Virus record (IMG/VR): IMGVR_UViG_3300031857_000808
Span: 1 to 32,582 of that record
DNA length: 32,582 nucleotides
DNA from: a virus
Reading direction: 5' to 3' (one strand)
Shown here piece after piece: positions 127-32,582 of this stretch; position 1 is the stretch's first letter; every line of letters begins with the position of its first letter. The notes under the pieces are model-generated. The model was not told where the DNA came from. It saw nothing but the letters and a program-made list of their open reading frames with translations, and did no database searches. The translations under genes and the position numbers were made by a program.

Positions 127-479
127 CAGCCCTTATAAGTTCCTGAAGTTAAATTCGGATACGTTACTCCGTTGTATTCTTCCCCGTAGCGGATAGAGTA
201 ATCGACAGATAAGGAGTTGCTTGCATTGCGGACAAATCCTGAGCCGTCCTCGATAAGTTGGCGATTAAAGTAGTTTCTGACAATAGGTCCGAAATCGATG
301 ATCCCCAAATTGTTAGCGTCTGGATAGACTTTGAAGCTTGCGACGGTTGCAAGATTAATTTGTATGTCAAATACATATTTAAAATTGGTTAGTCCTACAT
401 TGTTGGAAGTTACCACAAACCAGAGCGCGTCATGGGCTGATGAGTAACTAGGGGGAACGCTGTTGATAGTAATAGCCAT
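1..479 (-). CDS. Virion structural protein, N-terminal part (gene crosses the contig ends)
   Basis: The ATG is at 479-477 and the frame stays open through position 1. Because 1-126 equals 32456-32581, it continues without a break at 32455 and ends at 31783, giving a 383-residue protein. The start overlaps the stop of the upstream gene (TAATG), which fits translational coupling. The N-terminal part is rich in beta-prone and aromatic residues, as in tail or baseplate components. It lies between a putative minor tail protein and a 720-residue tail protein, upstream of the tape measure, so a distal-tail or baseplate role is likely. I do not recognise a named family. The apparent truncation is only where the circle was cut. 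Confidence 0.8.
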   Translation of the reverse strand, partial: MAITINSVPPSYSSAHDALWFVVTSNNVGLTNFKYVFDIQINLATVASFKVYPDANNLGIIDFGPIVRNYFNRQLIEDGSGFVRNASNSLSVDYSIRYGEEYNGVTYPNLTSGTYKGWNFSLDPFRNPITTYANKFLTSRDRTSAKVISGESFLITYFN

Positions 480-1174
480 TAGCTAAAAGTTTGTTTAATG
501 TTTAATGCAATATCTTGCCCTAATGCTTGAGCTAGTTTAGCCTGGAACTCAGGACCGAAAGCGATGTCTATATTATCCTCAAAAAATCCAGTCCTTGATA
601 TACCTTTTCGCTTTATGTTTCTAGCTGTTGCAATCGCTAGATTTCTAAGTTTCTCTGTCTGATTTACAACATTTCCAAGAGTTCTTCTTCTCTGTTGTAA
701 GCCAGTCAAATTTCTACGCTGGTCCTCATTACGGATGTAAGATTTATGGCGCAAATACCAGCGTGTAATCGAATCGATAAACCCACTAGATAAGCGTAAA
801 TTCTTAAAGCTATAAGGACTATTTGTAGGCTCATGGAAACCAGGAGGAAGTTTTCCTTTAAAGCCTCCTATTCCTTTTACCCCTTTGTCATTGAAATCGT
901 AATACTTAGACGCTGGATTGCTTTTGTCGTATCCAATAGTCAAAGAGTATTTAGTTCCGTTTTGAGTCACAGAGGAAACGACAATATCGGATAAATTACC
1001 GGTGTCGATTTTCTTTCTTTCTGTTAATCTCTTTTTAGCAAGTTCAATAAATTCTAAAGCAGCCTGCGCCATGATAGCCTCGACTGAATCTAGTTTGACC
1101 TCGCCACCTCTGGCGATTCCACCAAAATCAAAATCTGATCCTAAAGATGCCTGAGCCTGACTAATGCTTGCCAT
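479..1174 (-). CDS. Putative minor tail / tail-completion protein
   Basis: This is a 231-residue protein. Its ATG overlaps the end of the long tail-chaperone frame by 14 nt, and its stop overlaps the next ATG (TAATG). The N-terminal half has a helix with an LAKKRLTERKKIDTGNLSD segment, which resembles the start of HK97 gp10-like neck/tail proteins where a basic helix precedes a 'TGxL' strand. The middle is glycine-rich (GVKGIGGFKGKLPPG) and the C-terminal half is very basic. It sits between the chaperone-like gene and large tail genes. Assignment as a tail-completion or minor tail protein rests on context and this weak resemblance. Confidence 0.55.
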   Translation of the reverse strand: MASISQAQASLGSDFDFGGIARGGEVKLDSVEAIMAQAALEFIELAKKRLTERKKIDTGNLSDIVVSSVTQNGTKYSLTIGYDKSNPASKYYDFNDKGVKGIGGFKGKLPPGFHEPTNSPYSFKNLRLSSGFIDSITRWYLRHKSYIRNEDQRRNLTGLQQRRRTLGNVVNQTEKLRNLAIATARNIKRKGISRTGFFEDNIDIAFGPEFQAKLAQALGQDIALNIKQTFS

Positions 1175-1942
1175 GTATTTTTTTTATTTGCTCGCGATCA
1201 TGCGCGTTTTTACTCTTTAAATAGGACAAATCATTCAAGGCTTGAATTGTTGGAAGCTCGTAAACCTCAGACAGTTTTATCCTTTCGTGCTCTGCGATGA
1301 GTGTAGCTTGGTAAATCCATCCAAAGCGCTGCATAAATCCTGAACCATTGTCTCGGCCTGCTCTTCCGTCATCCCTGCCTTCATCGATTCCGTCTTGAAA
1401 TAGTCCGATAAACTCCTTATCGAGTCGTTGAATACTCGACAAAAAAAAACAATCGAACCGTAAACCTGCTCAAATGGCGCTTCCAAAATATCCTCAGCGT
1501 ATTCCTCATGCTTAGCTGAATCGTACTTAGCTACCTTCCAACCTCGCCAGGTTTTCTTCATTGGCATTACCATAGACGCCGCGATCTTATGGATATTTAA
1601 AGCTACATCCGCCCCGAAAAACTTCGTCTCTAGGTAGCGTGCATAAGGGATATTTCTAATATCATAGATGCACCGATACTTCCTACCAGGCGTCTTAATA
1701 AAGTCCACCGGCTTAGGCTCTGGGAGCGTGTCAGTGATAAACTTTATTTTTAATAATTGCTTATTTAGATCCTTTACAGATAAAGAGTCTATTTGGTTTT
1801 CTGTTTGGTAGGACAGAATTGCCAAAGATTTTACAGCGACGTCTAGCTCTGTCAGCCCTTCAGTTTTCTGAAGTAGATTCTGAAGCTGGATCCACTGCCA
1901 TACGGTTACATCTTTCCAAGTCATATCGTTATTAAATAGCAT
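1161..1942 (-). CDS. Tail assembly chaperone-like protein, predicted -1 frameshift form
   Basis: After F167 of the 221-residue frame, a slip of one base back on T TTT TTT continues at 1442 with LSSIQRLDKEF and stays open for 93 residues to a stop at 1161, giving a product of about 260 residues. The -1 frame has no clear ATG of its own until 1334 (MQRFGWIYQ); its longer form could only begin at TTG 1442. Its last 57 residues look like real protein (IAEHERIKLSEVYELPTIQ). Known gpG/gpGT pairs use the same -1 direction. Alternatives are an independent 57-residue ORF from 1334, or a homopolymer length error joining the two frames. Confidence 0.5.
1277..1942 (-). CDS. Tail assembly chaperone-like protein, short (0-frame) form
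   Basis: This 221-residue protein starts directly after the terminase stop. It is mixed helical and ends with a charged helix (KAGMTEEQAETMV). Its position after the terminase, before the tail genes and ahead of the tape measure, and its overlap with a second open frame displaced by -1, match the gpG/gpGT arrangement of lambda-like tails, where two forms of one chaperone coat the tape measure. The codons for V165-F166-F167-C168 contain nine T in a row, a potential slip site. The sequence itself is not obviously lambda G-like, so the name rests on architecture and context. Confidence 0.55.
   Translation of the reverse strand: MLFNNDMTWKDVTVWQWIQLQNLLQKTEGLTELDVAVKSLAILSYQTENQIDSLSVKDLNKQLLKIKFITDTLPEPKPVDFIKTPGRKYRCIYDIRNIPYARYLETKFFGADVALNIHKIAASMVMPMKKTWRGWKVAKYDSAKHEEYAEDILEAPFEQVYGSIVFFCRVFNDSIRSLSDYFKTESMKAGMTEEQAETMVQDLCSALDGFTKLHSSQSTKG
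1441..1449 (-). promoter_or_regulatory. T9 slippery site for -1 frameshifting
   Basis: On the coding strand the run G-T9-G is read GTT TTT TTT TGT in the 0 frame, so T TTT TTT is a perfect X XXY YYZ heptamer. The -1 frame is open from here to 1161. I did not identify a convincing downstream stem or pseudoknot by eye. Confidence 0.5.
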
Positions 1943-3115
1943 TTAAACAAAATTGTATTTACCGGTTCCTGCTTTGAAGTCTAGCTTGCGCCAGGCTAAA
2001 GCTAAAGCCATTACACAGTCATCGTGAAAACCGCTAGGCGCTGAGTATTTAACGCCATTAGCAGAGTACTGATATTCAAAGATTTCTAATTCCTCCTGAA
2101 TCATTCCAGCAGGATAGTGAATCTTCTCTTGATGGATTGCCACCTGCAAGCCTAGCATTAGCTCTTGTTTAGATTGGCTTGTAAACTTGAAGCCCTCTAT
2201 TGCTAATCCTTCGCGCTGTAGCTGTTCCACCACCGGATCACCTACGCCAGTGCTATCCACTAACATGGGAACCTTTGGAAGCATTCTGATTTTATTCTGT
2301 GTGCTAGCCCAGTCGTTTTGGAAGCGTTCAAAGTAAGCCACATTTCCATTCATGTCTAGCCCTATGATCACAGTCCAGTCGCTTGATTTAGCTAAGTCAA
2401 TTCCAAAGACTTTGACCGGTTCTGAAGACATCGCAGAGATGCAATTTGAAAGCGCTTTAGATCCAAATGGATTGGCACTATTCTCCGCTGGGTTAGCCAT
2501 GTATTCCTGCTCGAATACCACTTCAGGCAGAGCCATTCTAGCGCTGTCGATTTCATCGTCTGAGATGTGTGGATTATCATAAGAGCTAAACTTAAACGAC
2601 TCCCATTCTGGTGATGGATCGACGCCCTTTAAATAAAGCGAATAAAAGAAGTTCTTCCCTTTAGGTGTTGATAAGAATATCGCCTTCCCTTGGAAGTCTG
2701 TGAGCGTTGGACGAATGGCATTGTTCCAGCCCTCTTCCAGGTTAGGTATGAAGGACGCCTCATCGATAATCACATAGTGAAATTTTAAACCTCTGAGATT
2801 ATCTAGGCGTTCGCCCGTGAAGAATCTAATCGATCCTCCAGTGATTAGCTTAAAGGTCAGATCCGATCGGTTTGGGATTGCTACATTAGCCGGCATCAAT
2901 AAGGCAAGCTCATCAAAGAATGCCTTCGCTAATAAGTATGTTGGCGTGATGTACGCGACGCGCTTCCCTTGCATGGATTCCAGACAAGTGATTACTTGAC
3001 AGATCAAGGACTTCCCCCAGCGTCTGCCTGACATTAACACCTTGAACCTTGCTTTTGAATTTAAGACCTTCGCTTGGTTAGTGTGTGGTCTAGGAAGTGT
3101 GATCTTCGTTTGCAA
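1943..3115 (-). CDS. terL: Terminase large subunit
   Basis: This 390-residue packaging motor ATPase and nuclease is of typical length. Walker A SGRRWGKS lies at residues 29-36 and Walker B VIIDEA at 115-120, followed by the coupling region around FLSTPKG (148-153). The C-terminal RNase H-like nuclease shows the expected acidic residues in FGIDLAKSSDW (D240), LVDSTG (D287) and FHDD (D365/D366). It cuts and translocates phage DNA into the prohead through the portal. The start overlaps the end of TerS by 26 nt, and the next gene begins right after the stop, so the three genes form one operon. All catalytic motifs appear intact. Confidence 0.95.
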   Translation of the reverse strand: MQTKITLPRPHTNQAKVLNSKARFKVLMSGRRWGKSLICQVITCLESMQGKRVAYITPTYLLAKAFFDELALLMPANVAIPNRSDLTFKLITGGSIRFFTGERLDNLRGLKFHYVIIDEASFIPNLEEGWNNAIRPTLTDFQGKAIFLSTPKGKNFFYSLYLKGVDPSPEWESFKFSSYDNPHISDDEIDSARMALPEVVFEQEYMANPAENSANPFGSKALSNCISAMSSEPVKVFGIDLAKSSDWTVIIGLDMNGNVAYFERFQNDWASTQNKIRMLPKVPMLVDSTGVGDPVVEQLQREGLAIEGFKFTSQSKQELMLGLQVAIHQEKIHYPAGMIQEELEIFEYQYSANGVKYSAPSGFHDDCVMALALAWRKLDFKAGTGKYNFV

Positions 3116-22454: not shown

Positions 22455-24434
22455 TTAGTCTTTTTTAATTACTACCTGAGAAGCCCAGACGTGACGGCAA
22501 GAAGGAGAGTGTTCTCCGTCTGGCATTGTCCACCATCCACCTCTGCGATCAAAAACTGAATAGCCTAATCTTAAGCTGATCGCTTCGATCTCTGCTCTTG
22601 TATAAAGTCTATCTAATTCCATAAGACGCGCACAGAATTGACGCGATGGATGCTCAGCAGAATTGCGCTGACCTACCGGAATCGATGAGCGCCACTCGTA
22701 AGAATAGCGGACCATAAAGCTTCTTGTCGATGGCTTAGTGTCAGTGATTTCAGATAGGGGAGAAGTCAAAATTCTTTCAACAGTTCCTCGCACGTTTGTG
22801 GACTTAATTAGTCCGCGCTCCTGCAAGCTATCCATGACCTTGTTAATGATTCCTAGATCTGTCTTGATAGTTCCAGCGATAATCTCTGGAGTGATTCGCT
22901 TATCCTTCTGGATTAAGTCTAGGACGTTAGCCTCTAGGCGTGTCAGTTCTTGCTCTGCGAAGTCCAAATTCATTGCCTCCTCTAAGTCATTAGGTGAAGC
23001 TGAGAACGTGTCTCTGGTGCGAAATATGGAGTAATTGCTTTTGCTCTCTCCGAACTGCGCGAATATGTCAAGGACATCGTCCTCGCTGAATCTTAGATTA
23101 GTAGCAGAAGGAGCGGCGATTTCTGGCTCTCCGCCTCCTTGCTCTTGTGTCAAGCCCACTAGTGATCTGATCTCGTTTTGAGTCATTGATTCTAGCACCT
23201 TGTTAGCTACTAATGGGGATAAGCTATTGATAGCATTGATTACATCTTGAGCTGATCCGGTTGTATTTGGTTCTAGCTTAGGCGCTCCAAGCTTCTCGCG
23301 GATCTCGTCTTTAGTTAAGTTCTGTGCGATTGTAGCTTCAGAGAACTCCATGCCAATCGGCTCGACTGGGATTATTTGTAGCCCATCGACAGCACCGCGT
23401 AATTTGGCAAGTAAACTGAATACTTGTTCCTGATATATTTGCTTATCATTGACGTATGTGTTTTTAAATATCTCATAAGAATCGCGCATTTGTTGGCGTG
23501 ATCCTAATTGTCCAGGTGTAGCAATACCGAATAAATCAGGAGACGTGATCTGGTGTCCAGCGTACACATTCTTCTCGATGATCTTATCAACATTAGCAAA
23601 GTCCTCCTTCGTAATGTCAGAAGCTCCAAGGTCCTCAATGATTGGCTTTCTTGAAGCGTCATTCACAAAGGAAAGAATAAACTTCTTGCCATCGGATCCT
23701 GAGAATCGATCAGTGAACTTTCTTTCTACCTGACGCTTCTCTTCATCTTGTGGTTCACCATTTGGAAGCGTGATTAATTTAGAAGCACTGAAGCCAGTCT
23801 GTGCATTTCCTAGGACGTGCTTAGAGACTTCGATGTCTGACTCAATATAATTCAAGGCGCCCATGTAACCAGGCAAAGAATAAGCCGATAGGTTAGGACG
23901 GTATTCTTTTAAGTAAAGAATCTGAGTGCCGACTGGAAGCTTATCATTAAATGCGTTATAAATATCGCGCTTGTATTTGTTGTCACCCCAGTTTTCAGAA
24001 TACCAAAACTGTGTATTATCGTCGTTTGTGCGGACCTTAGTATAATCTAAGTGATAAATCTCTGAAATCTGACCAGCTACCTGGCTCCAAATAACTTGAA
24101 GATAAGCGCCTCCGAATAATTCGACGTCTGTAGAAACCTTCTTTAGAATATCATTAAGAGATTCGAATGGATTAGGCTTGTCAATGAACTGCTTTGCAAC
24201 CTCATCGGCTTCGTCTATTGGCTTAAATCCGTTACCGGTGATATAATTTACCTTGCTTTTAATGATCGCATTGTGCTTAGCTGATTTAGTAAACAGATCG
24301 ACCAGGTAATTAGGGTAATCATTCTTCTTTCCGAACTCAATGTATCCACCATTCTCGCCTTTTTTCTCTGTATATTCTGGCTGTCTGGCCTCCGCAAAGG
24401 TTAGAACGTTCAAGAAATTCGTTGTATTGCTCAT
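22455..24434 (-). CDS. Portal protein with C-terminal extension
   Basis: This is a 659-residue protein. Residues 1-430 match an HK97/SPP1-style portal: KKNDYPNYLVDLFTKSAKHNAII, then the wing and stem around LFGGAYLQVIW, and an ITSPDLFGI loop. After an acidic linker, residues about 500-560 form a winged-helix-like unit (ELTRLEANVLDLI...LQERGLIKS). The last roughly 90 residues contain EHPSRQFCARLMELDRLYT, FDRRGGWWTMPDG and SPSCRHVW, resembling the end of Mu gpF/SPP1 gp7 minor head proteins. It forms the dodecameric DNA channel and binds TerL. Its start overlaps the previous stop (ATGA). Confidence 0.85.
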   Translation of the reverse strand: MSNTTNFLNVLTFAEARQPEYTEKKGENGGYIEFGKKNDYPNYLVDLFTKSAKHNAIIKSKVNYITGNGFKPIDEADEVAKQFIDKPNPFESLNDILKKVSTDVELFGGAYLQVIWSQVAGQISEIYHLDYTKVRTNDDNTQFWYSENWGDNKYKRDIYNAFNDKLPVGTQILYLKEYRPNLSAYSLPGYMGALNYIESDIEVSKHVLGNAQTGFSASKLITLPNGEPQDEEKRQVERKFTDRFSGSDGKKFILSFVNDASRKPIIEDLGASDITKEDFANVDKIIEKNVYAGHQITSPDLFGIATPGQLGSRQQMRDSYEIFKNTYVNDKQIYQEQVFSLLAKLRGAVDGLQIIPVEPIGMEFSEATIAQNLTKDEIREKLGAPKLEPNTTGSAQDVINAINSLSPLVANKVLESMTQNEIRSLVGLTQEQGGGEPEIAAPSATNLRFSEDDVLDIFAQFGESKSNYSIFRTRDTFSASPNDLEEAMNLDFAEQELTRLEANVLDLIQKDKRITPEIIAGTIKTDLGIINKVMDSLQERGLIKSTNVRGTVERILTSPLSEITDTKPSTRSFMVRYSYEWRSSIPVGQRNSAEHPSRQFCARLMELDRLYTRAEIEAISLRLGYSVFDRRGGWWTMPDGEHSPSCRHVWASQVVIKKD

Positions 24435-27746: not shown

Positions 27747-29621
27747 TTAAAATCTTGCCGCTTTCTCTAAGCGTGATATTCTTTGTTGCGATCCGCTGAT
27801 GTCACTCTCGACTACATAGGCGCGCGTAGTAACGTTTGAAATAGTATTTAAAGACGCCTGGTCTAATGAAGTCGGAATCGTTTCCTGGCCTCTAGGTGCA
27901 ATAGGTGCGCCTGCTCCTGCGCTTGGTGCTGATCCTAAGCTAGGAGCTGAGCCTCCACCACCTTGACCTGGAACTTGAACAGCTAAGATATTCTGAATTG
28001 ATTTATATCCAGAAGCTAAAGCAAGTCCGGCATTGATAGGAGCTAGCACTGGTCCAACAAATGGAATACCAATCGTAGACTCATAAGCTTTCTGAGCTGA
28101 TAAGATTGCGGATATTGTAGCACTTGCCACCGCTGCCGCCTTTCCTGCTGCCGTCTCCTGACCTAATAGATTGGAAAGATTTGCTAGTGTGTCGGCAGTT
28201 GTTTGAGCCGCTAAAATCTTAGCCTTCTTTTCCTCTTCAGTTAATTTAACTCTTGCTTTAGTTTGAGCCTCTAAGTTTTTAGTATTCTGCTCTTCGCCTT
28301 GCTTAATGATTTGGACAGTCTCGTCTGTAGTCGCTGTAATTTGCTCTAGTTCAGCTTGATCATATTTCTTCTGTATTTCTAAAAGCGCCTCATTTCTAGC
28401 GTCCTCTATTTCTGCCTCATCGCCTCCGAATTTAATCCGGTCCTCTAATTGCTTTGTATATTTAGCATTAACAGCTTCAATCTCTTTCTCTTGATCAGTC
28501 AAGAATTTATCAGCGTTTCTGTTAGCGATTGCCTCATCTTCTGCTGCTATTCTTTGCTGATTCTTTTTAAGCTCAGCAGCTGCCTCCTCTGCTTTCTTTT
28601 TCTCCTCCTCTTTACGTTTATTTGCTTCAGCTATTTGCTTGTCTCTAGCTTCTTTGTTTTGCTTAGCTATCTCCTCATTTCTTTTTTGATTCGCGTCTGC
28701 TATTGACTTATTATACTTGGTATCAATTACGACTAAATCGGTTTTAAGCTCGCGGAATTTTTTAATTTCCTCTTCGCTTAATTTACCGGTAGTCTTGAGC
28801 TTCTCTCTTAGTACATTTAAGTCATTAACGACTAACTGCTTCCTCTTATCAGAAAGAACTTTCTCGCTAGCGCCTGAAGCTTCTAATATTTTGATTTCCC
28901 CTTCTAATGTTTCCTTTCGTCTCTCAGCCGTCTTCGTGAATTTTTCCAAAGATCTCTCTGCTTCGTTTGTAATCCCTACAAAGTCAGTGACTTTAGTAAC
29001 TATTTCGCCAAAGATTTTACCTACATTCCCTAGGCCAGGGATTAATCGAAGCGCCGCAGCCTTGATAGCATCAAAGTTTGTGACAATTAAACCCAATGCA
29101 ACAGCAAAAGCACCGATACCTGTGGCAATTAAAGCCCCTCGCATAGTGGTAAATGCAGTCACAGCGGCCGCTCTGATCGCAGTAAAGCCAGCCACCACAT
29201 TAGTCTTGAGTACTAAAGCTAAGTTTTTGAATCCATCAACAGAGGCAAGAACCGTATTTAGTCCTTCAGATAGTGCAAGAGCTGACTGCACTTTTAAGAG
29301 TTGCTTCTCTACCTCAGCAGATTCCACACCCACTAAGGCTAAAGCCCCTTGAGTTGCAGCGAATGCTCCAGCTACGCCTTGAATAGATTGTCCAAATGCT
29401 TTAAATTTAGCATCCGGATCGAACGCCTCGATAGTTGCTTTAGCATCACCGATTCTATCCTTTAATTCGGCAGCTCTCGAAGCCGCTGCTGCAATCTCTG
29501 CCCCAGTTGCTCCGGCTGTATTTTGAAGTCTAGCTAGTTCCTGGACAGCCTCTCGAAGTTGTCCTCTGAGGCTCTTGGTGTCTGCGACTAGGTTAATCCC
29601 TACTGTTTCATTTACTGCCAT
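27747..29621 (-). CDS. Tail tape measure protein
   Basis: This is a 624-residue protein. The N-terminal helices (SLRGQLREAVQELARLQNTAGA) lead into a hydrophobic segment near 150-185 (ALIATGIGAFAVALGLIV). A long charged coiled coil follows, very rich in Lys and Glu, then a second hydrophobic part (SATISAILSAQKAY...GLALASGYKSI) and a Gly/Ala-rich C-terminus. This is the classic tape-measure form that sets tail length; at about 0.15 nm per residue it predicts a tail near 90-95 nm. The start overlaps the previous stop by one base. Confidence 0.85.
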   Translation of the reverse strand: MAVNETVGINLVADTKSLRGQLREAVQELARLQNTAGATGAEIAAAASRAAELKDRIGDAKATIEAFDPDAKFKAFGQSIQGVAGAFAATQGALALVGVESAEVEKQLLKVQSALALSEGLNTVLASVDGFKNLALVLKTNVVAGFTAIRAAAVTAFTTMRGALIATGIGAFAVALGLIVTNFDAIKAAALRLIPGLGNVGKIFGEIVTKVTDFVGITNEAERSLEKFTKTAERRKETLEGEIKILEASGASEKVLSDKRKQLVVNDLNVLREKLKTTGKLSEEEIKKFRELKTDLVVIDTKYNKSIADANQKRNEEIAKQNKEARDKQIAEANKRKEEEKKKAEEAAAELKKNQQRIAAEDEAIANRNADKFLTDQEKEIEAVNAKYTKQLEDRIKFGGDEAEIEDARNEALLEIQKKYDQAELEQITATTDETVQIIKQGEEQNTKNLEAQTKARVKLTEEEKKAKILAAQTTADTLANLSNLLGQETAAGKAAAVASATISAILSAQKAYESTIGIPFVGPVLAPINAGLALASGYKSIQNILAVQVPGQGGGGSAPSLGSAPSAGAGAPIAPRGQETIPTSLDQASLNTISNVTTRAYVVESDISGSQQRISRLEKAARF

Positions 29622-31783: not shown

Positions 31784-32582
31784 TATTTAAATTGGCTAAA
31801 CTGTTTGATACCTAAATCGAAGTTCAATTCGTAGTTAAATATCTTATCTGAGCTATTATTCTTTTCCTGCCATGTAGTGCCCGTAAATACAATCGGATAA
31901 TAGTTACCACCAAACTGGAAATAAATCTCGTTAGAAGCCAAAAGCTGAGATCCTAGATTGTAGTCATCCACAGTCAGATAGTCACTAATTACAAGGTAAG
32001 AATAATCGATGCCAGTCGTGAAGCTTCTTGAGCCACCATAAAATACATTAGACGAATTTTTAAAATCCATCGTTTTTGTTTCGACGTTAATTTCATATCC
32101 TGAACGTGTGTAAGTTTTACGATCCATTTTTTTATTCTGTCTCGATAGCAATCTGAAAGCGAACTGATCGTATCCTCCAAACTGATTTTGGAATACTATC
32201 TGGACCGGTGTAAATCTAGGCGCGCAGGTTTGAGTGATAGTTATCGAATCAGAGCCAATCGAAACGCGATAGGCATAAGTGCTAGCCGTAATCTTTGTCG
32301 TGCCTAGGTAGGCGTTTATCGAAGCCGGAGACAAATCCAAAAGAACGCTATTAACTGCCGAGCCTATAAAGTTAGATCCCGTCGATGCGCTTCCGTTATT
32401 ACTTCCGTCCTCATTTAGATTCTGGATTGTAGCAGTTAGCGAATTGGCTAAGTCTGAATTGAAGTAAGTAATTAAGAAAGATTCTCCTGAAATTACCTTG
32501 GCTGATGTCCGATCGCGTGATGTTAAAAACTTATTTGCATAAGTAGTGATAGGATTGCGGAAAGGATCAAGCGAAAAGTTCA
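31783..32582 (-). CDS. Virion structural protein, C-terminal part (continues at 479..1)
   Basis: This is the rest of the 383-residue structural protein whose ATG is at 479. The frame is continuous over the contig junction, and bases 32456-32582 duplicate 1-126 plus one base. The C-terminal part has FGGYDQFAFRLLSRQNKKMDRKTYTRSG, FTTGIDYSYLVISDYL and IYFQFGGNYYPIVFTG, all strand-rich. An apparent start at 32340 (TTG) is only an interior codon. The stop overlaps the next ATG. This fits a distal-tail protein. Confidence 0.75.
   Translation of the reverse strand, partial: NFSLDPFRNPITTYANKFLTSRDRTSAKVISGESFLITYFNSDLANSLTATIQNLNEDGSNNGSASTGSNFIGSAVNSVLLDLSPASINAYLGTTKITASTYAYRVSIGSDSITITQTCAPRFTPVQIVFQNQFGGYDQFAFRLLSRQNKKMDRKTYTRSGYEINVETKTMDFKNSSNVFYGGSRSFTTGIDYSYLVISDYLTVDDYNLGSQLLASNEIYFQFGGNYYPIVFTGTTWQEKNNSSDKIFNYELNFDLGIKQFSQFK
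32456..32581. repeat. Terminal repeat, right copy
   Basis: The same 126 bases as 1-126. It should be removed before analysing the genome. The final base 32582 does not match base 127. Confidence 0.9.

Follow-up and report, generated by a model that had tools for sequence, protein, structure and literature searches.

Directly downstream of the terminase large subunit gene, the window (the whole 32,582-nt stretch of viral DNA that was analysed) carries a 221-aa open reading frame on its minus strand together with a second frame, shifted by -1, whose open stretch begins slightly ahead of a run of nine Ts (T9) and ends with a stop at 1163-1161 (Table 1). Fused at the run, the two frames would share the joint F167-L168 and amount to 167 + 93 = 260 aa, which bears out a preliminary description of this DNA that had proposed a -1-direction fusion at the T run into about 260 residues. 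Its estimate of about 165 nt open in both frames agrees with the 54 codons (162 nt) after the run, and the heptamer T TTT TTT it pointed to does lie in frame (1448-1442), but within a T9 run and not just a T7. The -1 peptide GRDDGRAGRDNGSG, which had been considered weak-looking, turned out to belong to a fast-evolving G/D/S/N-rich linker between two conserved blocks of the -1 frame. When the 0-frame protein was held fixed and synonymous codons were drawn according to the codon usage of the window, the -1 frame stayed open across the overlap after the run in 0.06% of draws; the two-frame arrangement is real and far from chance. The T9 is the sole A/T run of nine in the 32.6 kb window, which has four runs of eight and none longer than nine.

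Table 1 Features of the dual-frame gene and its neighbourhood in the window.
Feature	Position	Strand	Remarks
Terminase large subunit	1943..3115	minus	directly upstream; phrog_2 E 2.8e-42, Pfam Terminase_6N/6C
Short product, 221-aa 0-frame ORF	1942..1280, stop 1279-1277 (feature 1277..1942)	minus	gpG-like; purifying selection before run; model pLDDT 82.5
T9 run, candidate slippage site	1441..1449 (read 1449-1441)	minus	T9 in 267, T10 in 11 of 278 contexts
In-frame heptamer T_TTT_TTT	1442..1448	minus	T2-T8 of the run; wobble positions T2, T5, T8 with 0 changes on tree
-1 frame extension	1161..1442	minus	93 codons from L168 + stop; would form the T-like part of the 260-aa fusion; strong constraint at codons 37-46, 61-90
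Dual-coded overlap	1280..1441	minus	54 0-frame codons (162 nt); both frames constrained in first 15 -1 codons
Fast-evolving G/D/S/N-rich linker, -1 codons 16-36	1335..1397	minus	between two conserved -1 blocks
In-frame ATG of -1 frame, codon 37	1332..1334	minus	ATG in 28/30 representatives, CTT in L074/L078
Next gene, possible neck	479..1174	minus	weak Neck1/tail-completion phrog_5 E 0.035; start overlaps -1 frame end by 14 nt
Tape-measure-like gene	27747..29621	minus	phrog_9483 E 4.3e-9 and others; downstream of the chaperone-like gene on the circular map

The genes are arranged in the order terminase, frameshift gene, possible neck gene, two structural-like genes and tape measure, the last about 4 kb downstream of the frameshift gene. 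As the window ends (1-130 and 32450-32582) overlap, the contig is circular or terminally redundant; both ends encode the peptide FSLDPFRNPITTYANKFLTSRDRTSAKVISGESFLITYFNS, and one structural gene spans the join.

Searching the phage records with both products by tblastn returned nothing, and a cultured relative surfaced via the fold search, where gp38 of Nonlabens phage P12024S is among the matches of the 0-frame model; its gene likewise follows the terminase and has a T9 run and an open -1 frame. Like the window, P12024S and P12024L have homologous 0 and -1 frames (gp38-gp39) with T9 at the same aligned place, whereas their 0-frame tail is shorter (75 nt after the heptamer) and the pair is annotated as two unrelated hypothetical genes. 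In P12024S (L316 23136-23830), gp39 corresponds to the tail of the -1 frame, with its start placed too late; the T9 of gp38 occupies 23578-23586 of NC_018271. A scan of genome contigs found no relative and thus no prophage or host link. Two other phage proteins were rejected: R9VW65 of Flavobacterium phage 6H, a weak fold match (E 0.019), has TTTTTTC near its end with a -1 frame that stops at once, and Cellulophaga phi46:1 gp16 lies at the same place without a T9.

The arrangement is conserved far beyond the window. An IMG/VR scan gave 80 relatives of 44-100% identity and scans with other members added more, so that the run could be examined at 314 loci, of which 309 have it in frame (T9 285, T10 24); the exceptions are four contigs that end before the site, a match placed elsewhere (L159), one locus that loses the frame after the run (L274) and L033/L152. 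A search based on gp38 yielded 63 further loci, all T9 or T10 where the site was read through, and a profile of the gp38-derived set another 80 (77 T9, two T10 and one contig that stops inside the run). Overall, about 450 related IMG/VR loci were covered, and only a few of them depart from the arrangement. The 448 usable loci represent 278 distinct 127-nt contexts, falling into 70 clusters below 80% and 24 below 65% identity, and a run of seven, eight or more than ten Ts was never seen. Among 35 representatives below 70% identity the nine Ts are constant and the flanking bases on both sides variable, and protein identity among relatives goes down to about 20%. Both frames are homologous between the window set and the P12024S-type set, with hhalign E values of 1.3e-16 for the 0 frame, in an alignment that runs up to the two Phe (FF) of the slip site, and of 2.8e-9 for the -1 frame. 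The preliminary description had proposed an alignment of homologues as a check and had named two patterns that would speak against a frameshift. Relatives do keep the T run and both frames; only one contig shows a single continuous frame, and loss of the run with both ORFs retained is seen in none of the homologues.

Some loci deviate from this general picture. L033 and L152 are one contig (3300009155_000835), in which T10 gives a single continuous fused frame, reflecting either an error or a natural fused variant. The 243-aa BFVD entry A0A6J7WJY4, a phage protein predicted as one continuous chain, is hit by the models of both the 0-frame product (E 3.5e-6) and the -1 domain (E 1.1e-4), so there may be a relative that is naturally fused or mis-sequenced. 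Two contigs of 50 and 63 kb contain two gene copies each, about 31-33 kb apart (L242 + L244; L257 + L279), pointing to assembled dimers or a join between two related genomes.

Investigating selection on the two frames, we classed substitutions by their effect in each frame on a tree of 30 representatives, using reconstruction by parsimony and a simple model of mutation. Constraint is limited to the 0 frame ahead of the run (observed/expected 2.43 for S,N vs 0.40 for N,S) and extends to both frames in the first 15 codons of the -1 frame (N,S 1.34; S,N 1.05; S,S 4.87; N,N 0.71). Within the linker it is stronger in the 0 frame, and from FMxxYGW onward in the -1 frame; the 0-frame C-terminus is conserved past the T run. 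As purifying selection acts on both frames, translation of both products is very probable, the stretch being dual-coded. Within the run, the silent positions T2, T5 and T8 show no change at all, compared with a mean of 6.9 at the third positions of other invariant residues in the 30 representatives.

Taken at the level of DNA sequence, a programmed change of frame at the T run is almost certain. One start would thus give two proteins, with most transcripts yielding the 221-aa product; at T9 a fraction would shift by -1 and add 93 residues in the -1 frame, so that the 260-aa product would end in a conserved helical domain attached through a flexible linker. We lean towards RNA polymerase as the main slipping agent, a reading to which we give somewhat better than even chances: the enzyme would slip where the nine-T run forms a weak rU:dA hybrid and produce a U10 mRNA that is then read normally. 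Slippage of the ribosome on U_UUU_UUU would lead to the identical protein and may contribute. Tail-chaperone frameshifts are textbook ribosomal recoding, and every experimentally known one is, to our knowledge, ribosomal.

The strongest competitor, somewhat less probable than polymerase slippage yet a serious one, is classical -1 programmed ribosomal frameshifting, in which two tRNA-Phe would slip in tandem on U_UUU_UUU and the surplus Ts would be fixed by the needs of the protein. Signatures of both machines are present at the site, namely an A/T homopolymer of at least nine that is conserved as a run (T9/T10 only, 278 contexts), as is typical of transcriptional slippage, and an in-frame X_XXY_YYZ motif conserved at silent positions (T_TTT_TTT), as is typical of a ribosomal site. 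The heptamer is perfect and in frame in all intact copies, ribosomal slippage is the known mechanism of tail chaperones (reviewed in PMC5009743), and U_UUU_UUY is among the efficient E. coli motifs (PMC4066793), all of which suits the ribosome. T1 and T9 are also not silent, as they contribute to the hydrophobic codon before FF and to Leu/Phe in the -1 frame. As amino-acid needs also explain T1 and T9, it is mainly the last base of the heptamer that separates the two machines. With Leu as the next -1 codon, a C at this base would leave both proteins unchanged (TTC Phe; CTR Leu), and efficient E. coli ribosomal motifs include H_HH.U_UU.Y, so that ...UUC also works (PMC4066793). The base is nevertheless always T: the -1 Leu after the site is TTA/TTG in 263 of 263 cases, although CTN makes up about half of the Leu codons in the window.

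The length of the run points in the same direction, as it is never seven or eight and its nine Ts are two more than a ribosome needs. Bacterial RNA polymerase slips efficiently at nine A/T, with a hybrid of 9-10 bp (PMC5009743), and A/T runs become avoided from length nine in the coding regions of many bacteria (PMC1088944). Moreover, a conserved stimulatory structure, as might accompany ribosomal frameshifting, was not found in a search that covered local structure and covariation: local RNA structure near the site gave no signal over control (mean z 0.03 upstream and -0.22 downstream vs -0.40 in a control stretch), and no covarying pair was detected near the site. In every locus the +1 frame hits a stop after 0-15 codons. 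Such closure would be expected if some mRNAs were shortened at the run as well, though it can be a by-product of dual coding. Polymerase slippage is hence favoured because of the invariant last T of the heptamer, where a silent C would work in E. coli ribosomes, and the nine-base minimum, with the qualification that the ribosomes or RNA polymerase of the host may be unlike those of E. coli. Of the ribosomal -1 frameshift assumed in the preliminary description, the programmed change in the -1 direction stands; the choice of the ribosome sits less well with two Ts beyond ribosomal need and no stimulator found.

Two product lengths made by transcriptional slippage have been described for genes of type III and type VI secretion (PMC5009743, PMC4256274). 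As would be the case in the window, Shigella mxiE (a run of Us) and Citrobacter tssM1 (A11) combine a homopolymer of about nine or more with two product lengths, an extra mRNA base fusing two frames (PMC4256274, PMC1088944). Unlike these, the window gene, a candidate for such slippage, is a phage morphogenesis gene whose run is kept over very wide divergence. A second nine-base homopolymer at a possible chaperone gene occurs in Flavobacterium phage 11b (L382 18173), where A9 joins the 0 frame of gp38 to the -1 frame of gp39, with the long gene gp40 following closely; in contrast to the window, it belongs to another family, has A instead of T and would slip near the 0-frame stop. The distance from the slip to the 0-frame stop is 148-262 nt in most copies and about 50-80 nt in the P12024S group, compared with 26 nt on average in the chaperones of SEA-PHAGES (PMC10885494). 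The literature searched, with most subscription journals outside its scope, describes no tail chaperone with a T9 or with slippage at transcription.

The genomic context might give a hint to the function, and a tail-chaperone-like role is likely, given the layout and the two-length product. Like lambda gpG/gpGT and the tail-assembly chaperones of siphophages, the window gene has one start, short and long products, a shift in the -1 direction, an extension in the -1 frame and a place in the tail gene region, the short and the frame-shifted long product from one gene being seen here at the sequence level. It differs from gpG/gpGT in its T9 slip site, its location after the terminase gene and the lack of detectable sequence homology. 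The match in genome position that had been claimed with gpG/gpGT holds for the general layout and only loosely for the place, as the gene follows the terminase, lies about 4 kb before the tape measure and is not in the slot between major tail protein and tape measure genes. It is this location, together with the lack of any confident chaperone match, that speaks for a real frame change in a product of another kind, e.g., some other morphogenesis or neck factor, which we consider unlikely. PHROGs and Pfam gave no informative match with either product, Foldseek and VIA searches of the PDB returned chance-level rows only and no convincing solved structure, and a BFVD match named 'Tail assembly chaperone' has an E value of 1.0 over 52 columns only; the model of the 0-frame product is matched by 31 predicted viral proteins at E <= 0.001. 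Against a non-chaperone function are the two-length layout, the size and the largely helical fold, a weak match to phrog_166 'tail protein' (E 0.0032, 4/11 relatives) and the tape-measure gene about 4 kb downstream in all five related genomes where one was found (distances from locus coordinates). Together, the gene would work like gpG/gpGT, and we do not file it as a member of that family because it has no confident chaperone homology and does not directly precede the tape measure.

That the -1 frame is a separate gene with an internal start, either TTG at the run or the ATG at 1334, is very improbable, even though that ATG is present in most representatives (Table 1) and gp39 of P12024S is annotated as a gene of its own. 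No start codon position common to all lineages was found, several groups have TTA at the run, and L031, L046 and L071 have conserved -1 residues upstream of any start. The start at 1334, which the preliminary description had kept in play, is not general, as L074/L078 have CTT in its place and the conserved -1 block LDKxFxGLF / LSFRxRL precedes it; a separate gene would also leave the invariant T run unexplained. A homopolymer sequencing or assembly error that splits one gene, as the continuous T10 frame of the contig L033/L152 might suggest, can practically be dismissed and is refuted by the homologues, with T9 in the same phase in hundreds of contigs and an isolate, selection in both frames and a 0-frame C-terminus conserved beyond the run.

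In conclusion, the element conserved at this locus, down to about 20% protein identity, is a homopolymer long enough for RNA polymerase to slip on. It is about an even call that polymerase slippage at a fixed T9, in place of ribosomal frameshifting, sets the ratio of the two tail-chaperone forms in a large group of tailed phages that is mostly uncultivated and has the Flavobacteriia phage P12024S as cultured member; the dual-coded stretch behind the run would reach up to about 260 nt. If polymerase slippage is true, the same regulatory need would be met at a different step of gene expression. Furthermore, the T9 offers a simple marker by which the gene can be found and named in phage contigs, hundreds of them or more, that currently have it split or annotated as hypothetical.
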